In this document: positions 16,177 to 23,730 of the stretch, in pieces
Layout of the letters: each line of letters begins with the position of its first letter
Numbering within the stretch: position 1 is the first letter of the stretch
From: Methanosarcina sp. DH2
GTDB lineage: Archaea; Halobacteriota; Methanosarcinia; Methanosarcinales; Methanosarcinaceae
Reading direction: 5' to 3'
Length of the DNA stretch: 46,633 bases
Assembly: GCF_020804225.1 (NCBI RefSeq)
Contig: NZ_WJBI01000010.1
Location: 1 to 46,633 of the forward strand
Made by a program: the position numbers and the translations under genes
Notes under the pieces: model-generated
Told to the model about the DNA's origin: nothing
What the model saw: only the letters and a program-made list of their open reading frames with translations
Databases searched by the model: none

Positions 16177-16259
16177 CCCCGCAGCAAGCTAGCGGGGTAT
16201 TCGACTGAAAATAAATGAGCCAAGTGGCTCGCTTAAAGATATTTCGCTTTATTTTCTTA
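16177..16259. repeat. Second CCCCGC...GCGGGG hairpin with following stems
   Basis: CCCCGC (16177-16182) and GCGGGG (16192-16197) enclose AGCAAGCTA, a close relative of the loop in the neighbouring hairpin. It is followed by a GAGCC / GGCTC hairpin (16217-16221, 16226-16230), itself flanked by GAAAATAAA and TTTATTTTC arms. Placed just after the C39 peptidase stop, it may terminate that transcript. The repeat structure also recalls ends of IS200/IS605-type elements, but no transposase is present here. Confidence 0.6.
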
Positions 16260-17405
16260 TCCCAAATAAGAATATCCAGTTGATGAGGTATCATCAGACC
16301 CTGTGTATTCATAGACATTTTCTTCATAGTTGAATAAAGGATTACCTGTATCGTACCAAAACATCGTATTTTCACCAGTCCAAGTATTTGGATCATTTAG
16401 TTGGAAATATTGGCTGCCTGTAGAGTATCCTCTAAGAACTACTGCATGGCAAGCACCATAGAAACTTTCTTCTGTAAGATAAAATGGTCTTCCATTATCG
16501 ATCATACTTTCAATTTGACCGATTGTGTAAGAGAGTGAGCCAGTTTTTAGACCTTTAATTAAATATACGCCTTGATCATCCAGATAATCTTGAGCTTCAC
16601 CAGCGCTCATTCGATCATAACCATTATAAACCCAGATACTCCATATAGATGGATGGTCACCTGACCAGTATTCTTCAAGCATTGCAGCGCATGTTTCACC
16701 ACAGGCTTGGCTTGCAGCATCGTAATTTTGTTGGTATGTATATATTTCCCACTGACTTCTTTGAGGAACATCAAGGGATATACTGCTTTTAGTTGTTGCA
16801 GTTGGACTAATGTTTTCGTACATGCTGATAGATGATCCCAAGAGACCTATTTCACATTCAATTCCATTTCTTATAACTTTCCCAACAATGCATCCTTTTC
16901 CATCTTCATAGAATTCTCCATGTAGGTTGTATTTTTCTTCTGCATCTTGAAGATCGACATATGTTGCGTACATTTCTGTTGCGCCTTCGTAACGGGTCAT
17001 TGTCATGTTGTCTACTTTGGAGTAAATAGGCTTGGCTCCGTCCGGGACATTCCATCCAATAAACACTTGAGTTGCTTCACCGGATAATTGAACTTTCTCC
17101 TCTTCTCCATCAAGTGTGATTATGCCTTCAAGAACAACAAAGTTGTTCTTATCGATGGTGCCTGATAGATAAGCTGTCACTGATTTTTTAGTAGTGTTTG
17201 CTGTGCTCAAGTCAGTGATCTTTTTGTCATCTAGAGGAATTATCAGAACCCCATCTTTTTGGTCCATTGTTAAGGTAACTTGTTTGACATCTGAGCTATC
17301 AGACAATGTTTCTGCTTGGGCACTTACCATTGGTACAAATGTCATGCCTACCAGCATCATTGCCGCAAGTAGTGCGGCAATTTCAAATTTTCTGTTTGCA
17401 ATCAT
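16257..17405 (-). CDS. Secreted C39-like cysteine peptidase family protein
   Basis: From the ATG at 17405 (382 aa) the protein begins with a clear signal peptide, LLAAMMLVGMTFVPMVSAQA. A middle region of about 180 residues has no recognised domain. The C-terminal half is a papain-like peptidase C39-type domain: the nucleophile lies in QACGETCAAMLEEYW, the histidine in ACHAVVLRGYS and an Asn/Asp in QLNDPNTW. The start is fixed by GAGGT 7 nt upstream. The open frame runs 14 codons further, to 17447, but those codons overlap the leader stem. It may cleave exported peptides or surface proteins. The substrate is unknown. It is preceded by the structured leader at 17406-17534. Confidence 0.82.
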   Translation of the reverse strand: MIANRKFEIAALLAAMMLVGMTFVPMVSAQAETLSDSSDVKQVTLTMDQKDGVLIIPLDDKKITDLSTANTTKKSVTAYLSGTIDKNNFVVLEGIITLDGEEEKVQLSGEATQVFIGWNVPDGAKPIYSKVDNMTMTRYEGATEMYATYVDLQDAEEKYNLHGEFYEDGKGCIVGKVIRNGIECEIGLLGSSISMYENISPTATTKSSISLDVPQRSQWEIYTYQQNYDAASQACGETCAAMLEEYWSGDHPSIWSIWVYNGYDRMSAGEAQDYLDDQGVYLIKGLKTGSLSYTIGQIESMIDNGRPFYLTEESFYGACHAVVLRGYSTGSQYFQLNDPNTWTGENTMFWYDTGNPLFNYEENVYEYTGSDDTSSTGYSYLG

Positions 17406-17534
17406 TCTTTTACCTCGTAATTTTATTCCCGAGGCAAGATCAAGCAAGCTTTAAATATCCACAAAGATATCATTTCCTTGCCTCAGGGCATGTGAAGTTC
17501 AAATGTGCTCTGGAAAGTTTGTTTGGACTTCACA
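17406..17534 (-). promoter_or_regulatory. Structured leader, copy 1
   Basis: Read on the minus strand: a long hairpin with 13-bp arms (17522-17534 and 17491-17503, one mismatch) around a loop containing ACTTTCCAGA. Then comes a second stem with perfect 8-bp arms GAGGCAAG (17477-17484) and CTTGCCTC (17431-17438), and then the ribosome binding site and ATG of the peptidase. A TATA-like AATGTATAG lies about 25-30 bp before the first arm, so the whole segment could be the 5' untranslated region. A related copy lies at 23008-23129. Confidence 0.6.
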
Positions 17535-17839
17535 TTCAAAAATCTCTCTTAATCTTCTCCTATACATTTATTACGGTGATGAACTATTCATCAGCCCGAT
17601 TAACATTCATTAAACCAATACTCTTTTTCATCAAAAATAACGAAATTTCAGAGCTTTAACTGATGTCTGAAATTCGATTCACTTTTAGCAAATAATCTGG
17701 AGATTATTTTCTTCACTAAATAATAAAATTAACAAAAAAGGTAGCAACATACATGCCCCAACAAAAGAAAAGAATATATGATGTCAAAATAATTTAATAA
17801 GAAAGTAAGGAAAAAAATCTGTAGATACGGCGACATGAA
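17535..17839. other. Divergent spacer
   Basis: AT-rich region between the peptidase leader and the plus-strand regulator. It holds the proposed TATA box for the leader (about 17558-17570, minus strand). No clear promoter was identified for the regulator, and I see no gene. Confidence 0.35.
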
Positions 17840-18670
17840 ATGAACGGCTTCGAAATTTATAAAAAAAGGGGAGATGACGTTCAGGCAATATATAGGTCAA
17901 GACTTCTAACAGAGATACTTCTATCATTAAACGAGGGCAGCAGAAAGCTTTCTCAACTGCGTGAAATTACCGGAAGTACATCTCAGGCACTAATTCCAAA
18001 GCTCAGGAAAATCGAAGCGGATCATCTGATAGAAACAAAAGAACATGAGTATTTCCTGACGTCAGCAGGAAAAATTGTGGCTTCAGGAATAGCTGACTCT
18101 TTTGTAACATTTTGGACTATTAATAAGTTTAAGCATTTCTGGTTAAGACATTACCTCGAAGGAATTCCCAGTCCTTTGTTAAAAGAAATCGGATGTCTTT
18201 ATGAGTCTGAAGTCCTCAAGGATCGAGGCATGAAGATCCTTAACGTCTACAACAATCAGTTAAAAATGATTAAAGAAGCAGATCATATATACGGTATATC
18301 GTCCGTTGTAACCGAAGGATATGCTGATGCTATCTCTGAAAGAGTAAAAGAAGGAGTCCCTGTCGAGCTTATAGTTCCTCTTCACGTTGCAGAAGAATTG
18401 AAGCGATCACCTTATCTGGAAAAAATAGAAGCACTGAAAAATTATGAAAACTTCAAATTAATGGCTATGAATGAAGATATTAAAGTGGGACTTATTGTTA
18501 CGGATAAACGTCTTTCTCTGAACCTGTACAAAAAAGAAGGCGTTGAGTACGACATAAGCACAGGCCTGTTCAGTTCTGACTCGAAGGCCATTGAATGGGA
18601 GAGAGGCTTTTCTGGTATTGTAAAGGGAAGGCAGATTTCACAAAATTTCAGTGATGCGGAAATTTGTTAG
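17840..18670 (+). CDS. ArsR-type winged-helix regulator with FilR1/DUF1724 domain
   Basis: A 276-aa archaeal regulator. Residues about 18-75 form a winged helix (LLTEILLSLNEGSRKLSQLREITGSTSQALIPKLRKIEAD). The C-terminal two thirds match the FilR1 (DUF1724) sensor domain, with HFWLRHYLEGIPSPLLKEIG and GVPVELIVPLHVAEEL. This architecture is that of the Methanosarcina-specific Msr regulators of methyltransferase genes and of FilR of Methanothrix. Here no methyltransferase genes are adjacent. It diverges from the C39 peptidase gene and its leader, which makes that gene a candidate target. The Shine-Dalgarno is weak. Confidence 0.82.
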   Translation: MNGFEIYKKRGDDVQAIYRSRLLTEILLSLNEGSRKLSQLREITGSTSQALIPKLRKIEADHLIETKEHEYFLTSAGKIVASGIADSFVTFWTINKFKHFWLRHYLEGIPSPLLKEIGCLYESEVLKDRGMKILNVYNNQLKMIKEADHIYGISSVVTEGYADAISERVKEGVPVELIVPLHVAEELKRSPYLEKIEALKNYENFKLMAMNEDIKVGLIVTDKRLSLNLYKKEGVEYDISTGLFSSDSKAIEWERGFSGIVKGRQISQNFSDAEIC

Positions 18671-18692
18671 AGAAAAATCTGGACAAGCCTCC

Positions 18693-19103
18693 TCAAACAG
18701 TTTCTATCATTATCATTATTGGAGCCTCGTTATTCCAATCTATTACTATAATAGGTGTGCTGCAACGATGCAAAGATACTGGAATAGTTTCTTCTAGAAC
18801 TCCATTATCCAGTGTAATCCTGAATGTATAATTTTTCATTCCGGTAGAATATAGAAGATCAAACGGTTTTGCTTCTGAAGCCCTTTCATCCGGATAAAGC
18901 TTGTATGATTCCTTGAACATGGAACTGTTGTACGAGTCCAATATTTCTACAGTTACTTCATGGGTCCCTGCATCATTATTTCTGATTTCAAAAAAATTAG
19001 GTAAAGCCGGACCGCCCAGAAGAAATATTAATACATTATAACCCACGAATGCAGCTACAAGTATGATTAACAAAAGTAAAAGTATTTTTTCAAAGTTTCG
19101 CAT
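18693..19103 (-). CDS. Small membrane-anchored protein, unknown function
   Basis: A 136-aa protein with one N-terminal transmembrane helix (ILLLLLIILVAAFVGYNVLIFLL) and an exported domain of about 100 residues predicted to be mostly beta strands: VTVEILDSYN, NYTFRITLDNGV, TPIIVIDWNN. It resembles an Ig-like or C2-like sandwich. GAGGATT 5 nt before the ATG supports the start. It converges with the DUF1724 regulator gene and precedes no obvious partner. I do not recognise the family. Confidence 0.65.
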   Translation of the reverse strand: MRNFEKILLLLLIILVAAFVGYNVLIFLLGGPALPNFFEIRNNDAGTHEVTVEILDSYNSSMFKESYKLYPDERASEAKPFDLLYSTGMKNYTFRITLDNGVLEETIPVSLHRCSTPIIVIDWNNEAPIMIMIETV

Positions 19104-19188
19104 TTGTAATCCTCACATCTTGAATTCGGATTTAGCAAACAGGCTCAAAAAGGAAAGTGAAAAGATAGACTATTCAGAATCGTATTTT

Positions 19189-21471
19189 TTACCCCCTAAA
19201 GGAACTTATCCACTCCGGTCTTTCAGGAGGGTTATTATTCAGCATTATTCTCCATTCTTCATCAGTCAACCTTTCTCCTGAAGGCTGCCAGAACTCATAG
19301 TAACTCATTACAGGGCCTGCTCCAAGCACGATCCTGCCGTCAGGCTGTTTGTACGCTACTACCATCATGTCCAGTTTTCCGGTCCCTTCTTCCAGGATAC
19401 TTCCTCCCGGACCTGTATAAACATCCGCAACCAGAGTGGACATCTGGGACTTGATATCTACGTTCTCAAGCATTGGAGCTATATTCTGGTCGAAATTCCT
19501 GATGAACTCGTACTCTTCATCCGTCAGCTCTTTATTTTCAAGCTCTTTAATCGAGATTTCCAGCAGCCTTTCAAGGGTTTTTTCAAGAGTTGTAAAGTCT
19601 TTATCCGACTGCTCATCAAGTACTTCCATATCATTTAACCCCGTGTGTGCCATTTTTGTAAGAGCAAGCATCCTTGCATAGAATTCAGGGACTGGCTCCA
19701 CATATCCCTCTACAGGTTTTTCTTCCTGAATTTGGGGAGCACCCATGAAGTAGGTCTGCTTTCCATAGAGGATAGTATCATGCCTGAGCTCGGTCCAGGA
19801 AGCAAGGGCGGTGTTAAGCTGCTTATCCTCCCAGGCTTCGGTCTGCATGAAAGTGGGATACCCCTCAGGATAGCTTACAAGGAGGGGCTTTAAGGCGTAT
19901 AGCTGTGCCCAGTAGAGGTTTTTATTCCAGTCTTCTTCATCAAAAGCTTCAAATTCGTTTTCCAGAGATTGATGGCTGATTTCATATTCTGCGTTTTCGG
20001 AAACATCCATATTTTTAAGGTGTTTCGCGGCTCTTTCAGAGCCGAGAAGATCCATGATATTCAGGGCAGGGAAACCGAGCTTCTGGAAGATATAGGAATC
20101 CGGGGTATAGCGCTGCCCCATGAACCTGAAACCTTTTGTGGCATCAAGGGTTTTGCTTTCAGTTTCAGAGCCTGCAGGAATTATTTCCCCTGTTCCGCCA
20201 TAGATTTTCGGGCTTTCGTATCTTTCCAGTTCGGTTTTCAGTGCTGTAAGGCTTTCGTTGTCGAAACTCACTCCGGATCTATCATTTCCAAAGACGGTAT
20301 CCAGAGCTTTTGCATATTCATAGGGGCCAAGGTCATCGGAAAAACCGACATAGAAAGCCGTTACCTCGTAGATTCTGTCCCAGCTGGCCCGGAGGTTTTT
20401 GTCCCTGTCAAAATGGTCAGAAATTAAAAGGGCCTGCATAGTCTGAATTCTCGCTTCCTTTTCCGGGGTTTCTGCAGTAATCATATCCGACTGAAGGAGC
20501 ATGCTCATTCTGCCGTGCCACATCATGGCCTTAAAATAGTTCTTCAGTTTCTCGGAGCGAGTGTAATGTCCCCTTGGGGTGTACTGAGAGTAATCTTCCC
20601 TATACTTGAAAATCGGAGATATTCCATCCTCACGTGCCCCTATCAGGCGCAATTCAGTATCTACATCGGTCTTTACAAAAGAGGGGACTTCGACACTGTA
20701 TTGTTTTGCTTCCTCAGAATCAAAGAGTATGATTTTCCCCGAATCTTCCCGTGATTGCCCTATCTGATCAGGTTCCGGTTCAAGAAGTCGCAAAGCCACT
20801 GCAAAGTATGCAACATTTCTTCTTGCGGCTTCCTTTTCTCGCCCTGAGGCGCTGTCATAATCTTCTATGGAGGCTTCAAGGAGAGCTTTGTCAAGTTTCC
20901 AGAGTTCGTCGTAAAATTCATCAGATTCTGCCCTTTTTAGCGTCTCATCAAACTGGATATGATAAAGGTGAAGAAGAGAATCCGAAGTGATGAAAATAGG
21001 AACGTCAGCAACTTTCAGGTCTTTATAAGTAGAATTTACCAGTGTATGCCCTGCTCCAGGCAGATTTTCGATAGCCGGATTTTCAATCACAACAAACCCA
21101 TTTATGTACAGCAAATCCCTGCTTTCGTTCTTCAGGGGAATTTTTTGGACGAAATCGTCATAATTTGCAATTTCGGAGGCCTGTAGATGTAAAGAATAAG
21201 GGGAAACATTTGCTTCAAACCGTAGATTTTCTTTACTATAATATTTGGAAAAAGAGCTTTGCCTTTCAGGTTCGAGGGTATCTTTGCTCTTTTCGGAGTA
21301 ATTCTCTACAGGAGCGATTTCTACTGTAGCATTGAGTGAACTGTCCTGATTGTCTGTTACTTCATCAAGTTTAGCTTCTTTTACTGGTTCGCTGCTGCTA
21401 TCAATACAGCCTGATCCAGGTATCAGTGATACTGCCAGCAAGCAGATTACTATCAATGCCTTTATTTTCAA
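19189..21471 (-). CDS. DUF3160 family lipoprotein
   Basis: A large exported protein with a lipobox (LAVSLIPGSGCIDSS), so probably lipid-anchored outside the membrane, followed by a ~650-residue DUF3160 region: ADVPIFITSDSLLHLYHIQFDETL, KNYFKAMMWHGRMSMLLQSD, FRFMGQRYTPDSYIFQKL, SWTELRHDTILYGKQTY. The function of DUF3160 proteins is unknown. An in-frame ATG exists at 21513, but the TATA box overlaps it, so the likely start is the TTG at 21471 (760 aa), with GAGGG 7 nt upstream and a normal signal peptide directly after it. Several HxxxD and E-rich helices are present, but no catalytic motif I can name. Confidence 0.85.
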   Translation of the reverse strand: MKIKALIVICLLAVSLIPGSGCIDSSSEPVKEAKLDEVTDNQDSSLNATVEIAPVENYSEKSKDTLEPERQSSFSKYYSKENLRFEANVSPYSLHLQASEIANYDDFVQKIPLKNESRDLLYINGFVVIENPAIENLPGAGHTLVNSTYKDLKVADVPIFITSDSLLHLYHIQFDETLKRAESDEFYDELWKLDKALLEASIEDYDSASGREKEAARRNVAYFAVALRLLEPEPDQIGQSREDSGKIILFDSEEAKQYSVEVPSFVKTDVDTELRLIGAREDGISPIFKYREDYSQYTPRGHYTRSEKLKNYFKAMMWHGRMSMLLQSDMITAETPEKEARIQTMQALLISDHFDRDKNLRASWDRIYEVTAFYVGFSDDLGPYEYAKALDTVFGNDRSGVSFDNESLTALKTELERYESPKIYGGTGEIIPAGSETESKTLDATKGFRFMGQRYTPDSYIFQKLGFPALNIMDLLGSERAAKHLKNMDVSENAEYEISHQSLENEFEAFDEEDWNKNLYWAQLYALKPLLVSYPEGYPTFMQTEAWEDKQLNTALASWTELRHDTILYGKQTYFMGAPQIQEEKPVEGYVEPVPEFYARMLALTKMAHTGLNDMEVLDEQSDKDFTTLEKTLERLLEISIKELENKELTDEEYEFIRNFDQNIAPMLENVDIKSQMSTLVADVYTGPGGSILEEGTGKLDMMVVAYKQPDGRIVLGAGPVMSYYEFWQPSGERLTDEEWRIMLNNNPPERPEWISSFRG

Positions 21472-21512
21472 GTCAAATCCCTCACATTTTGATTTTGGTT
21501 TTAGCAGGCACA

Positions 21513-21523
21513 TTTATAAAAAA
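21513..21523 (-). promoter_or_regulatory. TATA box of the DUF3160 gene
   Basis: TTTTTTATAAA on the minus strand, about 45 bp before the TTG at 21471. The expected start of transcription, near 21490, lies after the ATG at 21513, which argues against that ATG as the translation start. Confidence 0.55.
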
Positions 21524-21580
21524 TGAGAAAATTTAAGAATTGGAAAATTTAAGGTATACGGCAACCTGAGAATGTAAAGT

Positions 21581-22750
21581 TTAATTTTTTACTATTATAA
21601 TTCCAAAAATTACCAATAACGTTGCGCATAACCCAATCGCTGCGACATGATGAATATCATCTATTGGAAAGATAGTGCCTTCTATTGGAAAGGTAATATT
21701 TTCTGTGTCGTCTAATTCAGCAGAGTTGTTTAATGTAGAATTCTCTATTCCGCCATTACTCCCTGATGCCGGACCGCTGGGCAGTAAATATGATTCATTA
21801 TAGTAATTATCAAAACGTACTGTACCTTCCTGGTTGTAAAACATAACCGAAACGCCACTGAGACCGGCTTTATCCGCATATTCTTTCACGATATTGCAGA
21901 TTTCGTCAAGTTCGCTCTGAGGATAAACTGTTTCGTTTTCTTGATAGTAAAGTGATATCAGGAAAACGTCGTCCATCGTGTCTGAACCATATGCAACTAT
22001 CGGCCCTTCTGGATAGAGGTACGGTTGTATTTCATTGAGAGAACCATCTTTTATAATTTGTAAGGATGACGAATTGGACATATAATAAAAAAGCTTCGGA
22101 AGTGTAATATCTGTTAGCTGAACAACGTCCCTGCCAAATGTAGCTTTATTTTCAGAAAAATAAAATATTGCTGTTTTATCCCAGAGACAAAATATGACCG
22201 GTACTTCATCAAGCCCGGCTTTAATGGCATTCTTTTCCACAATGTTGTAGATTTCTTTTAACTCGGCTTCGGAATAGACAGTTTTGTTACCTTTATAGTC
22301 ATAGAGTTTAATCAAAAAATACCCGGGCATAGGACCGGCACCATAGTTAACTATCGGGCCATCAGGATAAAGATACGGCTTTACCTCACGGATAGAACTG
22401 TCTCTTACAGTCTGCAGGGTTGAACTGAATTCAGCTAGCTGGGAAGCGTTTTTAACTGCCGGAACACTTCCATACGCTTTTAGAACATTGGGGTCGTATA
22501 TAGGACTTTCAGGATTTGTACAATTTTTAAAGGACTCTTCATTTAATTTTGAGAGCAGGGAGATTGTTTCTTCCGGATTATCCTGCCAGGCATAGTATGG
22601 TACATCATATACGGGTATCTCTGACCAGCCAGTTGTTTCCTCTATAATTTCATTCTGGTCAGGCAAATGGAGACTATCTGCAAGTGCATATCCTGAAAGC
22701 AGGACTAGAATCAAAAAAACGATAAGTAGTTTTACTGGCTTTCTACTCAT
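21581..22750 (-). CDS. Exported membrane-anchored protein with internal duplication
   Basis: From the ATG at 22750 (GGTGAG 3 nt upstream, 389 aa) it has a signal peptide (LLIVFLILVLLSGYALA), an exported region and a C-terminal membrane anchor (VAAIGLCATLLVIFGIIIV). The exported part contains two related modules of about 70 residues: PYLYPDGPIVNYGAGPMPGY...YKGNKTVYSEAELKEIYNIV, and PYLYPEGPIVAYGSDTMDDV...YQENETVYPQSELDEICNIV, separated by roughly 75 residues. Each module ends in AGL-x-x-V/x-V-x-F. The family is unknown to me. The architecture suggests a surface binding protein. Seventeen extra in-frame codons upstream, to 22801, lack a ribosome binding site. Confidence 0.72.
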   Translation of the reverse strand: MSRKPVKLLIVFLILVLLSGYALADSLHLPDQNEIIEETTGWSEIPVYDVPYYAWQDNPEETISLLSKLNEESFKNCTNPESPIYDPNVLKAYGSVPAVKNASQLAEFSSTLQTVRDSSIREVKPYLYPDGPIVNYGAGPMPGYFLIKLYDYKGNKTVYSEAELKEIYNIVEKNAIKAGLDEVPVIFCLWDKTAIFYFSENKATFGRDVVQLTDITLPKLFYYMSNSSSLQIIKDGSLNEIQPYLYPEGPIVAYGSDTMDDVFLISLYYQENETVYPQSELDEICNIVKEYADKAGLSGVSVMFYNQEGTVRFDNYYNESYLLPSGPASGSNGGIENSTLNNSAELDDTENITFPIEGTIFPIDDIHHVAAIGLCATLLVIFGIIIVKN

Positions 22751-22910
22751 ATTCTCACCAAAATTCCCAAAAATTAGAATGTCAGAAAGTAAAAAAGGCA
22801 CGACTAGTAACTATTCGAATAGTGACCACTCAAATTTACAAAATTTCCTCCACCGGTAATCCCTCTGCTTCAGTAATCATCCATGGCTCCGCAACTACTA
22901 TAGCGGTTGA

Positions 22911-23007
22911 TTATTCAGTTAGTGTTTCAGCACCTGAAAACGGCACAGATATATTTTATCAACATTGCCGAAATTAGCGTTCCGATTCTAGGTTATTCTT
23001 TGTTCAT
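22911..23007 (-). pseudogene. Decayed start of a secreted protein
   Basis: Behind leader copy 2, an ATG at 23007 opens a stretch that reads MNKE, stop, PRIGTLISAML. After one frameshift it continues VPFSGAETLTE before a stop at 22911. Compared with the C39 peptidase start (RKFEIAALLAAMM...VPMVSAQAETLSD), this looks like the remains of a signal peptide and mature N-terminus of a paralog. The rest of the gene is not recognisable before the neighbouring gene at 22750. Confidence 0.45.
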
Positions 23008-23129
23008 GCTTTGCTCTTTTCTTACTCAAGAGGCAGGATCATGCAAGCCTAAGGACCCTCAAAGCTGGCATATCATGCCTCGGAAGCATGGAGTTCAGGC
23101 GAGTCTGGAAAGTATATTTGAACTCCATA
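23008..23129 (-). promoter_or_regulatory. Structured leader, copy 2
   Basis: Minus-strand homolog of the segment before the C39 peptidase. A 10-bp hairpin with arms at 23119-23128 and 23088-23097 has a loop again containing ACTTTCCAGA. A second stem has GAGGCA (23076-23081) pairing with TGCCTC (23030-23035). Between the stem arms, blocks CTTTG and GCTTGC-TGATC are also shared. A TATA-like CTTATATAG (about 23146-23156) lies some 25 bp before the first arm. No intact gene follows. Confidence 0.6.
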
Positions 23130-23364
23130 ATTGACTTTGAATAGACTCTATATAAGTTTTCTAGCCAGATCATCAAACTGACATTCTTTCATACTCTTTT
23201 GGAGTATACAATTATTCTCTGACCTCTGATTGTTTGATACCTTGGACAGAAAACTTATAAGGCTACAGTTGCCACAGTTGTTTTCCACAATATAAAAAAA
23301 CGAACCTCATCACTCTACAGGTATCTACATCGAAATTCAAGCCAGTTCATCTAGATTCGGATGA

Positions 23365-23694
23365 TTACATACCTGATCGCTCTTTAATAGAATTAAAAAA
23401 GAGGTGATTTGCGGCGGAAGGTGTTTTATGATCGGAGTAAATTTTGGGGGATCGAAGCCCGGCATCAGTCCCATACCTTGCAATCTCGAAAACATCCGGT
23501 CTGGTAAGAGGTTCGCCTCCGCTCAGGATGAGGATAGCTTTTCCAAGCTCTACCTCATCAATGAAATGCTTAGCCTCTTCGGTTGTAAGCTCACCTTCAG
23601 GAACCGAGGAGGTGGAAGCTCCCCTGCAGTGCACGCAGTTCAGGTTGCAACCTGCAGTAAGTTCCCATGCAATAAGCCTTGGTGCATTTGTCAT
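23365..23694 (-). pseudogene. Truncated duplicate of ahbD
   Basis: The first ~81 codons are nearly identical to ahbD at 12959-13999, including the radical SAM cysteines and ILSGGEPLTRPD, with one codon deleted (VELGK instead of VVELGK). Homology ends near 23455-23462, after TDAGLR. The frame then continues for about 28 unrelated residues to a stop at 23365. By eye the nucleotide identity is about 90 percent, and it continues upstream of the start through the TATA box to about 23719. The product would lack the rest of the barrel and the second cluster domain, so it cannot be a working heme synthase. Confidence 0.88.
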
Positions 23695-23730
23695 AGCAAT
23701 CATAAATTAAGGGTTTATAGGAAGAAGCGT

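Follow-up and report, generated by a model that had tools for sequence, protein, structure and literature searches.

Two segments on the minus strand of a 46,633-nucleotide stretch of the Methanosarcina sp. DH2 genome (the window), 17534–17403 and 23129–23005, were proposed in a sequence-only reading to share one structured element of about 130 nucleotides. The question raised by this locus is whether the element is a small RNA or a 5′ RNA leader through which this lineage controls its exported-protein genes, and, if it is a leader, how it might act on the genes that follow.

Two copies of a structured leader

The two segments align over their full length. Copy 1 of the leader occupies 17422–17534 (−) and matches the covariance model with 117.2 bits over positions 1–113 of 113; copy 2 occupies 23021–23129 (−) and matches with 93.3 bits. 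Both copies belong to the training set of the model, so these scores are not independent and the main proof must come from homologs outside that set and from covariation. The first hairpin of copy 1, P1 (17491–17534), consists of a 13-bp stem, TGTGAAGTCCAAA/TTTGAACTTCACA, closed by a loop that contains ACTTTCCAGA. The same loop core is found in copy 2, whose first hairpin is TATGGAGTTC...GAACTCCATG, and the compensatory difference between the two first hairpins (GTGAAG/CTTCAC in place of ATGGAG/CTCCAT) is present as originally described. P1 is followed in copy 1 by the P2 5′ strand GAGGCA (17479–17484), which resembles a Shine-Dalgarno (SD) sequence, by the P3 hairpin region ATCTTT...AAAGCT (17447–17468), with a conserved loop of family consensus TACTTAA, and by the P2 3′ strand TGCCTC (17431–17436). 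The partner of this last strand is either GAGGCA (17484–17479) or the SD region CGAGGTA (17411–17417), the complement of TGCCTCG. The long first hairpin and the GAGGCA...TGCCTC stem are likewise found in copy 2, in which the P2 strands lie at 23081–23076 and 23030–23035. The predicted fold of copy 1 has an energy of −37.9 kcal/mol (z = −3.97), and none of 200 shuffled sequences folds as well; copy 2 stands out less from its shuffles, 6 of 200 being as good (z = −2.25).

TATA-like boxes precede the first stem in both copies: TGTATA at 17561–17566 (−) starts 32 bp before it, and TTATATA at 23148–23154 (−) lies 25 bp before it. Across 134 copies of the leader, the positions of TATA-like hexamers, counted from the first base of P1, have maxima at −27 to −25 and at −32/−31. 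This fixed distance suggests that the transcript would start close to the P1 base.

An ATG follows the GAGGCA...TGCCTC stem in both copies (17405–17403 and 23007–23005), as anticipated, but only that of copy 1 opens an intact exported protein. This is a C39-like cysteine peptidase (16257–17405, −; PF13529, E = 1.4e-11) with the signal peptide MIANRKFEIAALLAAMMLVGMTFVPMVSA. The ATG of copy 2 begins four codons (MNKE) and a stop, followed by the signal-peptide remnant IGTLISAMLIKYI and in-frame stops, and the original gene of this copy has therefore decayed (22900–23007, −; lower end approximate). The next intact gene (21581–22750, −) encodes an exported protein with an internal ATG start (MSRKPVKLLIVFLILVLLSGYALADS) and is followed by a DUF3160 lipoprotein gene (19189–21513); in another Methanosarcina (locus L039) the leader is followed by the same kind of gene as that at 21581–22750. 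Two further genes lie nearby. A FilR1-type (HxlR-like) transcription regulator gene (17840–18670, +) is divergent from the peptidase gene and the copy 1 leader that precedes it. A radical SAM ORF of 112 residues (23365–23703, −) matches the domain over its first part only and is probably a fragment.

A leader family in two orders of methanogens

With copy 1 as the query, DNA searches returned relatives from 43 of 101 Methanosarcinaceae genomes; copy 2 as the query returned them from 23 of 101. A first covariance model (R1), for which a structure was drawn by hand on 34 sequences aligned with plain MAFFT, extended the family to 70 of 112 Methanosarcinaceae genomes. The richest genome has at least 32 matches, a figure capped by how many candidates were scored. 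The many homologs expected of a conserved leader were thus found. R1 also matched loci in other families of the phylum (E ~1e-7) that have the same architecture. A second model (R2), trained on 78 sequences from both orders, placed the leader in 25 genera, in 89 of the 393 genomes sampled from the phylum; 10 forward copies lie in the DH2 genome. When named genomes were scanned for the pattern, the element was detected in Methanosarcina, Methanolobus, Methanohalophilus, Methanomethylovorans, Methanoculleus, other Methanomicrobiales and one Methanoperedens bin, and these matches were confirmed by the covariance model. In one exoprotein island (L138 and L139; G062:C1:2838000-2877500), about nine copies of the leader occur within 40 kb, each upstream of a different exported protein.

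Matches outside this range were examined separately. Eight chance pattern matches in bacteria (Firmicutes, Verrucomicrobia, Rhizobiales and others) gave no covariance model match. Reverse-strand model matches were discarded on account of the P1 palindrome. Strong matches also occur in contigs labelled as Clostridia, Syntrophomonadaceae and Cloacimonadota metagenome-assembled genomes (L218, L161, L187); these are most likely mis-binned methanogen contigs, and horizontal transfer may be an alternative. The core pattern had no matches in viral contigs, which led us to set aside a viral origin, and a plasmid search returned no match to the leader.

The family is apparently uncatalogued. Rfam 15 gave no match at the gathering threshold for the window and 18 diverse loci, and a permissive Rfam search of 16900–23400 returned nothing for the leader element. 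A weak match to sRNA162 (RF02792) at 23155–23301 (−), in the promoter region directly upstream of copy 2 and only there, has an E-value of 0.005 and falls short of the gathering score of 78 with 32.8 bits. No description of the family was found in the openly accessible literature that was searched. The flpD motif (RF01737) is likewise a structured RNA candidate of the Euryarchaeota (PMC2864571), to which the leader has no match at the gathering threshold.

Conserved structure and covariation

In family members P1 is followed by a GCCC linker, P2 (GAGGCA/TGCCTC) and a short helix of the GAT/ATC type. Beyond these lie an internal loop in which AUGU faces UUGC, and P3 (AGCTTT/AAAGCT), whose loop reads UACUUAA. 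P2 carries a CCC/GGG extension in the Methanomicrobiales. In the 34-sequence alignment, 90.2% of the cells at paired positions can pair, compared with 27–53% when the partners are slid, and 42 cells show double changes compared with 15.2 after shuffling. The R2 alignment of 78 sequences, which was fitted to the structure and so leans towards it, gives 85.6% paired cells (33–50% for slid partners) and double changes at 22 of the 28 pairs. It contains 222 double-change cells compared with 77.3 after shuffling (0 of 500 as high), a permutation statistic that, like the others given here, is optimistic in view of related sequences and gene duplications among the members. The hand-drawn structure on the alignment that was not fitted to structure agrees with the R2 covariation. 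Within P1, double compensatory changes occur at 9 of 13 pairs in the smaller alignment and at all 13 in the larger one. Paired covariation across homologs, the signature predicted for an RNA leader, is therefore significant in both hairpins, and the element has the conserved structure with compensatory changes that characterizes structured cis-regulatory leader RNAs.

The unpaired core bases GCCC, AUGU, UUGC and UACUUAA are kept between the two orders, which gives the leader a putative sensing domain with conserved unpaired bases of the kind found in translational riboswitches. Loops kept in this way speak for recognition of a specific signal. We rejected a pseudoknot between the P1 loop and the core (in copy 1, TTTCC with GGAAA), as GGAAA is missing from most members.

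Internal and terminal loops conserved across two orders would suit recognition by a protein equally well. The same SD-masking switch could then be driven by an RNA-binding protein on P2–P3, for instance a growth-phase or secretion regulator, and it is export rather than one pathway that defines the regulon. There is precedent in archaeal L7Ae, which controls translation through k-turns in 5′ UTRs (PMC5539422). The leader shares with those targets a structured 5′ UTR and archaeal translation control, but its regulon consists of secreted proteins and it has no conserved k-turn signature: inspection of the alignment shows that the tandem GA/AG is not conserved, with GA on the 3′ strand only and AUGU on the 5′ side. 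L7Ae is therefore unlikely, and no candidate partner protein was found. We regard a protein-responsive leader as possible but distinctly less probable than one that responds to a small molecule.

Downstream genes

The leader usually ends 14–25 nt before the start of an ORF, and nearly all such ORFs open with a signal peptide. It consistently lies upstream of a coding sequence and in the same orientation, as structured cis-regulatory leaders generally do. By a stricter home-made criterion, signal peptides are present in 109 of 118 distinct downstream proteins; among the remaining SD-bearing ORFs of these loci the figure is 101 of 270 (Fisher p = 4e-26). The comparison is conservative, since exported proteins are already abundant in this background. 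In loci from four families that were read afterwards, all nine copies precede signal-peptide ORFs (three of the nine overlap loci seen earlier). Placement before signal-peptide genes, the remaining expectation of the sequence-only reading, is thus borne out. Taken with the homologs, the covariation and the TATA boxes, it supports the proposal that the element is a 5′ RNA leader that would control exported-protein genes in this lineage.

The mature parts of these proteins include M12-type metallopeptidases (14 of 110) and C39-like peptidases (14 of 110), together with matrixins, transglutaminase, DUF3160 proteins, one weak match to a halocin C8-like domain and many unknown sequences. None of the genes downstream of the leader points to a ligand. 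In DUF3160-type lipoprotein genes the leader lies ~60 nt before the start (L061 in the DH2 genome; L040, L049 and L139 in other Methanosarcina), and this subgroup differs in its start and SD spacing. Two related genes with the leader encode no signal peptide (L021, 1043–1492, and L148, 4147–4587; MCEKQKSELL...); they may be a clue to function or may have lost the signal peptide.

Mature proteins of different kinds follow signal peptides that resemble one another (MIANRKFGIG...VPAVSA), and the leader occurs in tandem clusters. Both observations would fit a module in which the leader and the signal-peptide start were copied together by duplication and fusion; the link to secreted genes would then be hitch-hiking, and the structure would serve only mRNA stability or constitutive initiation. 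This reading is unlikely: signal peptides differ strongly between the two orders while the RNA core stays the same, and covariation of the SD-masking helix beyond the SD core (see below) implies selection on a switch.

Alternative pairing with the Shine-Dalgarno sequence

P2 is not formed in the minimum-energy fold of copy 1. Instead, TTGCCTCG pairs with the SD sequence CGAGGTAA, and this SD-masked state is favoured by a predicted 2.3 kcal/mol. Because the P2 3′ strand is common to both helices, P2 and the SD-masking helix are mutually exclusive. Pairs formed by the P2 3′ strand and its own SD region include TGCCTCG/CGAGGTA, CTCCTAG/CTAGGAG, TGCCTTTTG/CAAAAGGTG and TGCCTCA/TGAGGCA. Among 116 genes the complementarity of the strand to its own SD region is 15.3; exchanging SD regions between genes lowers it to 12.7 ± 0.19, and none of 300 such exchanges reaches the observed value. 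Part of this complementarity is built in by the SD-like P2 5′ strand, and independent covariation comes from the flanks only. There, in the register CCTC/GAGG, the base that follows UGCCUC covaries with the SD flank (G-C, U-A, A-U). Like a translational riboswitch, the leader would thus have two exclusive helices, one of which masks the SD, as predicted by folding and supported by covariation. The standard SD spacing is absent from copy 2 and from the DUF3160 subgroup.

The median predicted energy difference between the two folds is −2.4 kcal/mol, with 41% of members within 3 kcal/mol, and the P2 (SD-free) fold is predicted to be preferred in 73% of members; some members may be mainly ON. Folds so close in predicted energy, together with a predicted masking helix, would also be compatible with an RNA thermometer or general stability switch, in which temperature or ions shift the balance and no specific ligand is involved. 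A study of the related methanogen Methanolobus psychrophilus reported start sites that depend on temperature, and long 5′ UTRs with stem-loops that mask the SD, one of them in a cell-surface protein gene (PMC5378194). SD masking in the 5′ UTR is shared with the leader, but those stem-loops are presented as features of individual genes that arise via alternative start sites, rather than as a conserved RNA family. Moreover, a thermometer has no need for conserved unpaired bases, yet GCCC, AUGU, UACUUAA and UUGC are kept between orders. A temperature trigger is accordingly improbable, and less likely than a protein.

The same pairing bears on the nature of the element itself. P1 is a near-perfect palindrome with weak reverse-strand matches, as might be expected of a binding site acting at the DNA level, and a trans-acting small RNA, the second possibility raised at the outset, would likewise not be an mRNA leader. 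Both are very unlikely: most copies are oriented towards the gene at a near-fixed distance from an SD-bearing start codon, P3 covaries with inclusion of G-U pairs, and the 3′ part of the element pairs with the local downstream SD.

These observations suggest that the element is probably a cis-acting 5′ leader RNA that serves as a translational switch for secreted-protein genes in the Methanosarcinales and Methanomicrobiales, with a small molecule as the probable signal. In the proposed mechanism, transcription would start at the base of P1 or close to it, and P1 would be followed by the P2–P3 hairpin. The P2 3′ strand (UGCCUC and a few more bases) would then pair either with the upstream GAGGCA or with its own SD, never with both. 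With P2–P3 stable, the SD would be free and translation ON; with P2 open, its 3′ strand would mask the SD and translation would be OFF, a direction that we infer from the predicted pairings. The conserved loops most likely bind the signal, probably a small molecule, which would stabilize P2–P3 and so drive switching in vivo. An RNA apparently suited to hiding or exposing a ribosome-binding site makes an on/off switch of secreted-protein output probable, and the leader is most likely riboswitch-like.

Relation to known riboswitches and significance

In SD-masking translational riboswitches, such as the adenine add, preQ1-II and SAM-II classes, a conserved sensing domain is followed, just before the start codon, by an SD-masking helix with a common strand. 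The leader shares this layout and would work in the same way. It differs in being archaeal, in preceding secreted-protein genes and in having no Rfam match, and its membership among riboswitches is tentative. The GEMM (c-di-GMP-I) riboswitch is a single class with many copies per genome and varied extracellular functions. Many copies and extracellular functions are also features of the leader, which lacks an Rfam match and has no detectable relation to GEMM in sequence or structure.

To our knowledge, few cis-regulatory RNAs are known in archaea. That the leader represents a new riboswitch class in methanogenic archaea of two orders, in which one signal governs a secreted-protein programme through SD masking, is a plausible though still tentative reading; if true, the class would be an archaeal counterpart, in its logic, to second-messenger riboswitches. 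Both Methanosarcina acetivorans and M. mazei are open to genetic manipulation. Present in 10 to 32 or more copies per genome and linked to exoproteins, secreted proteases among them, the leader would mark out an exoprotein regulon under post-transcriptional control in major methane producers, and its trigger would reveal the signal by which these cells decide when to secrete.
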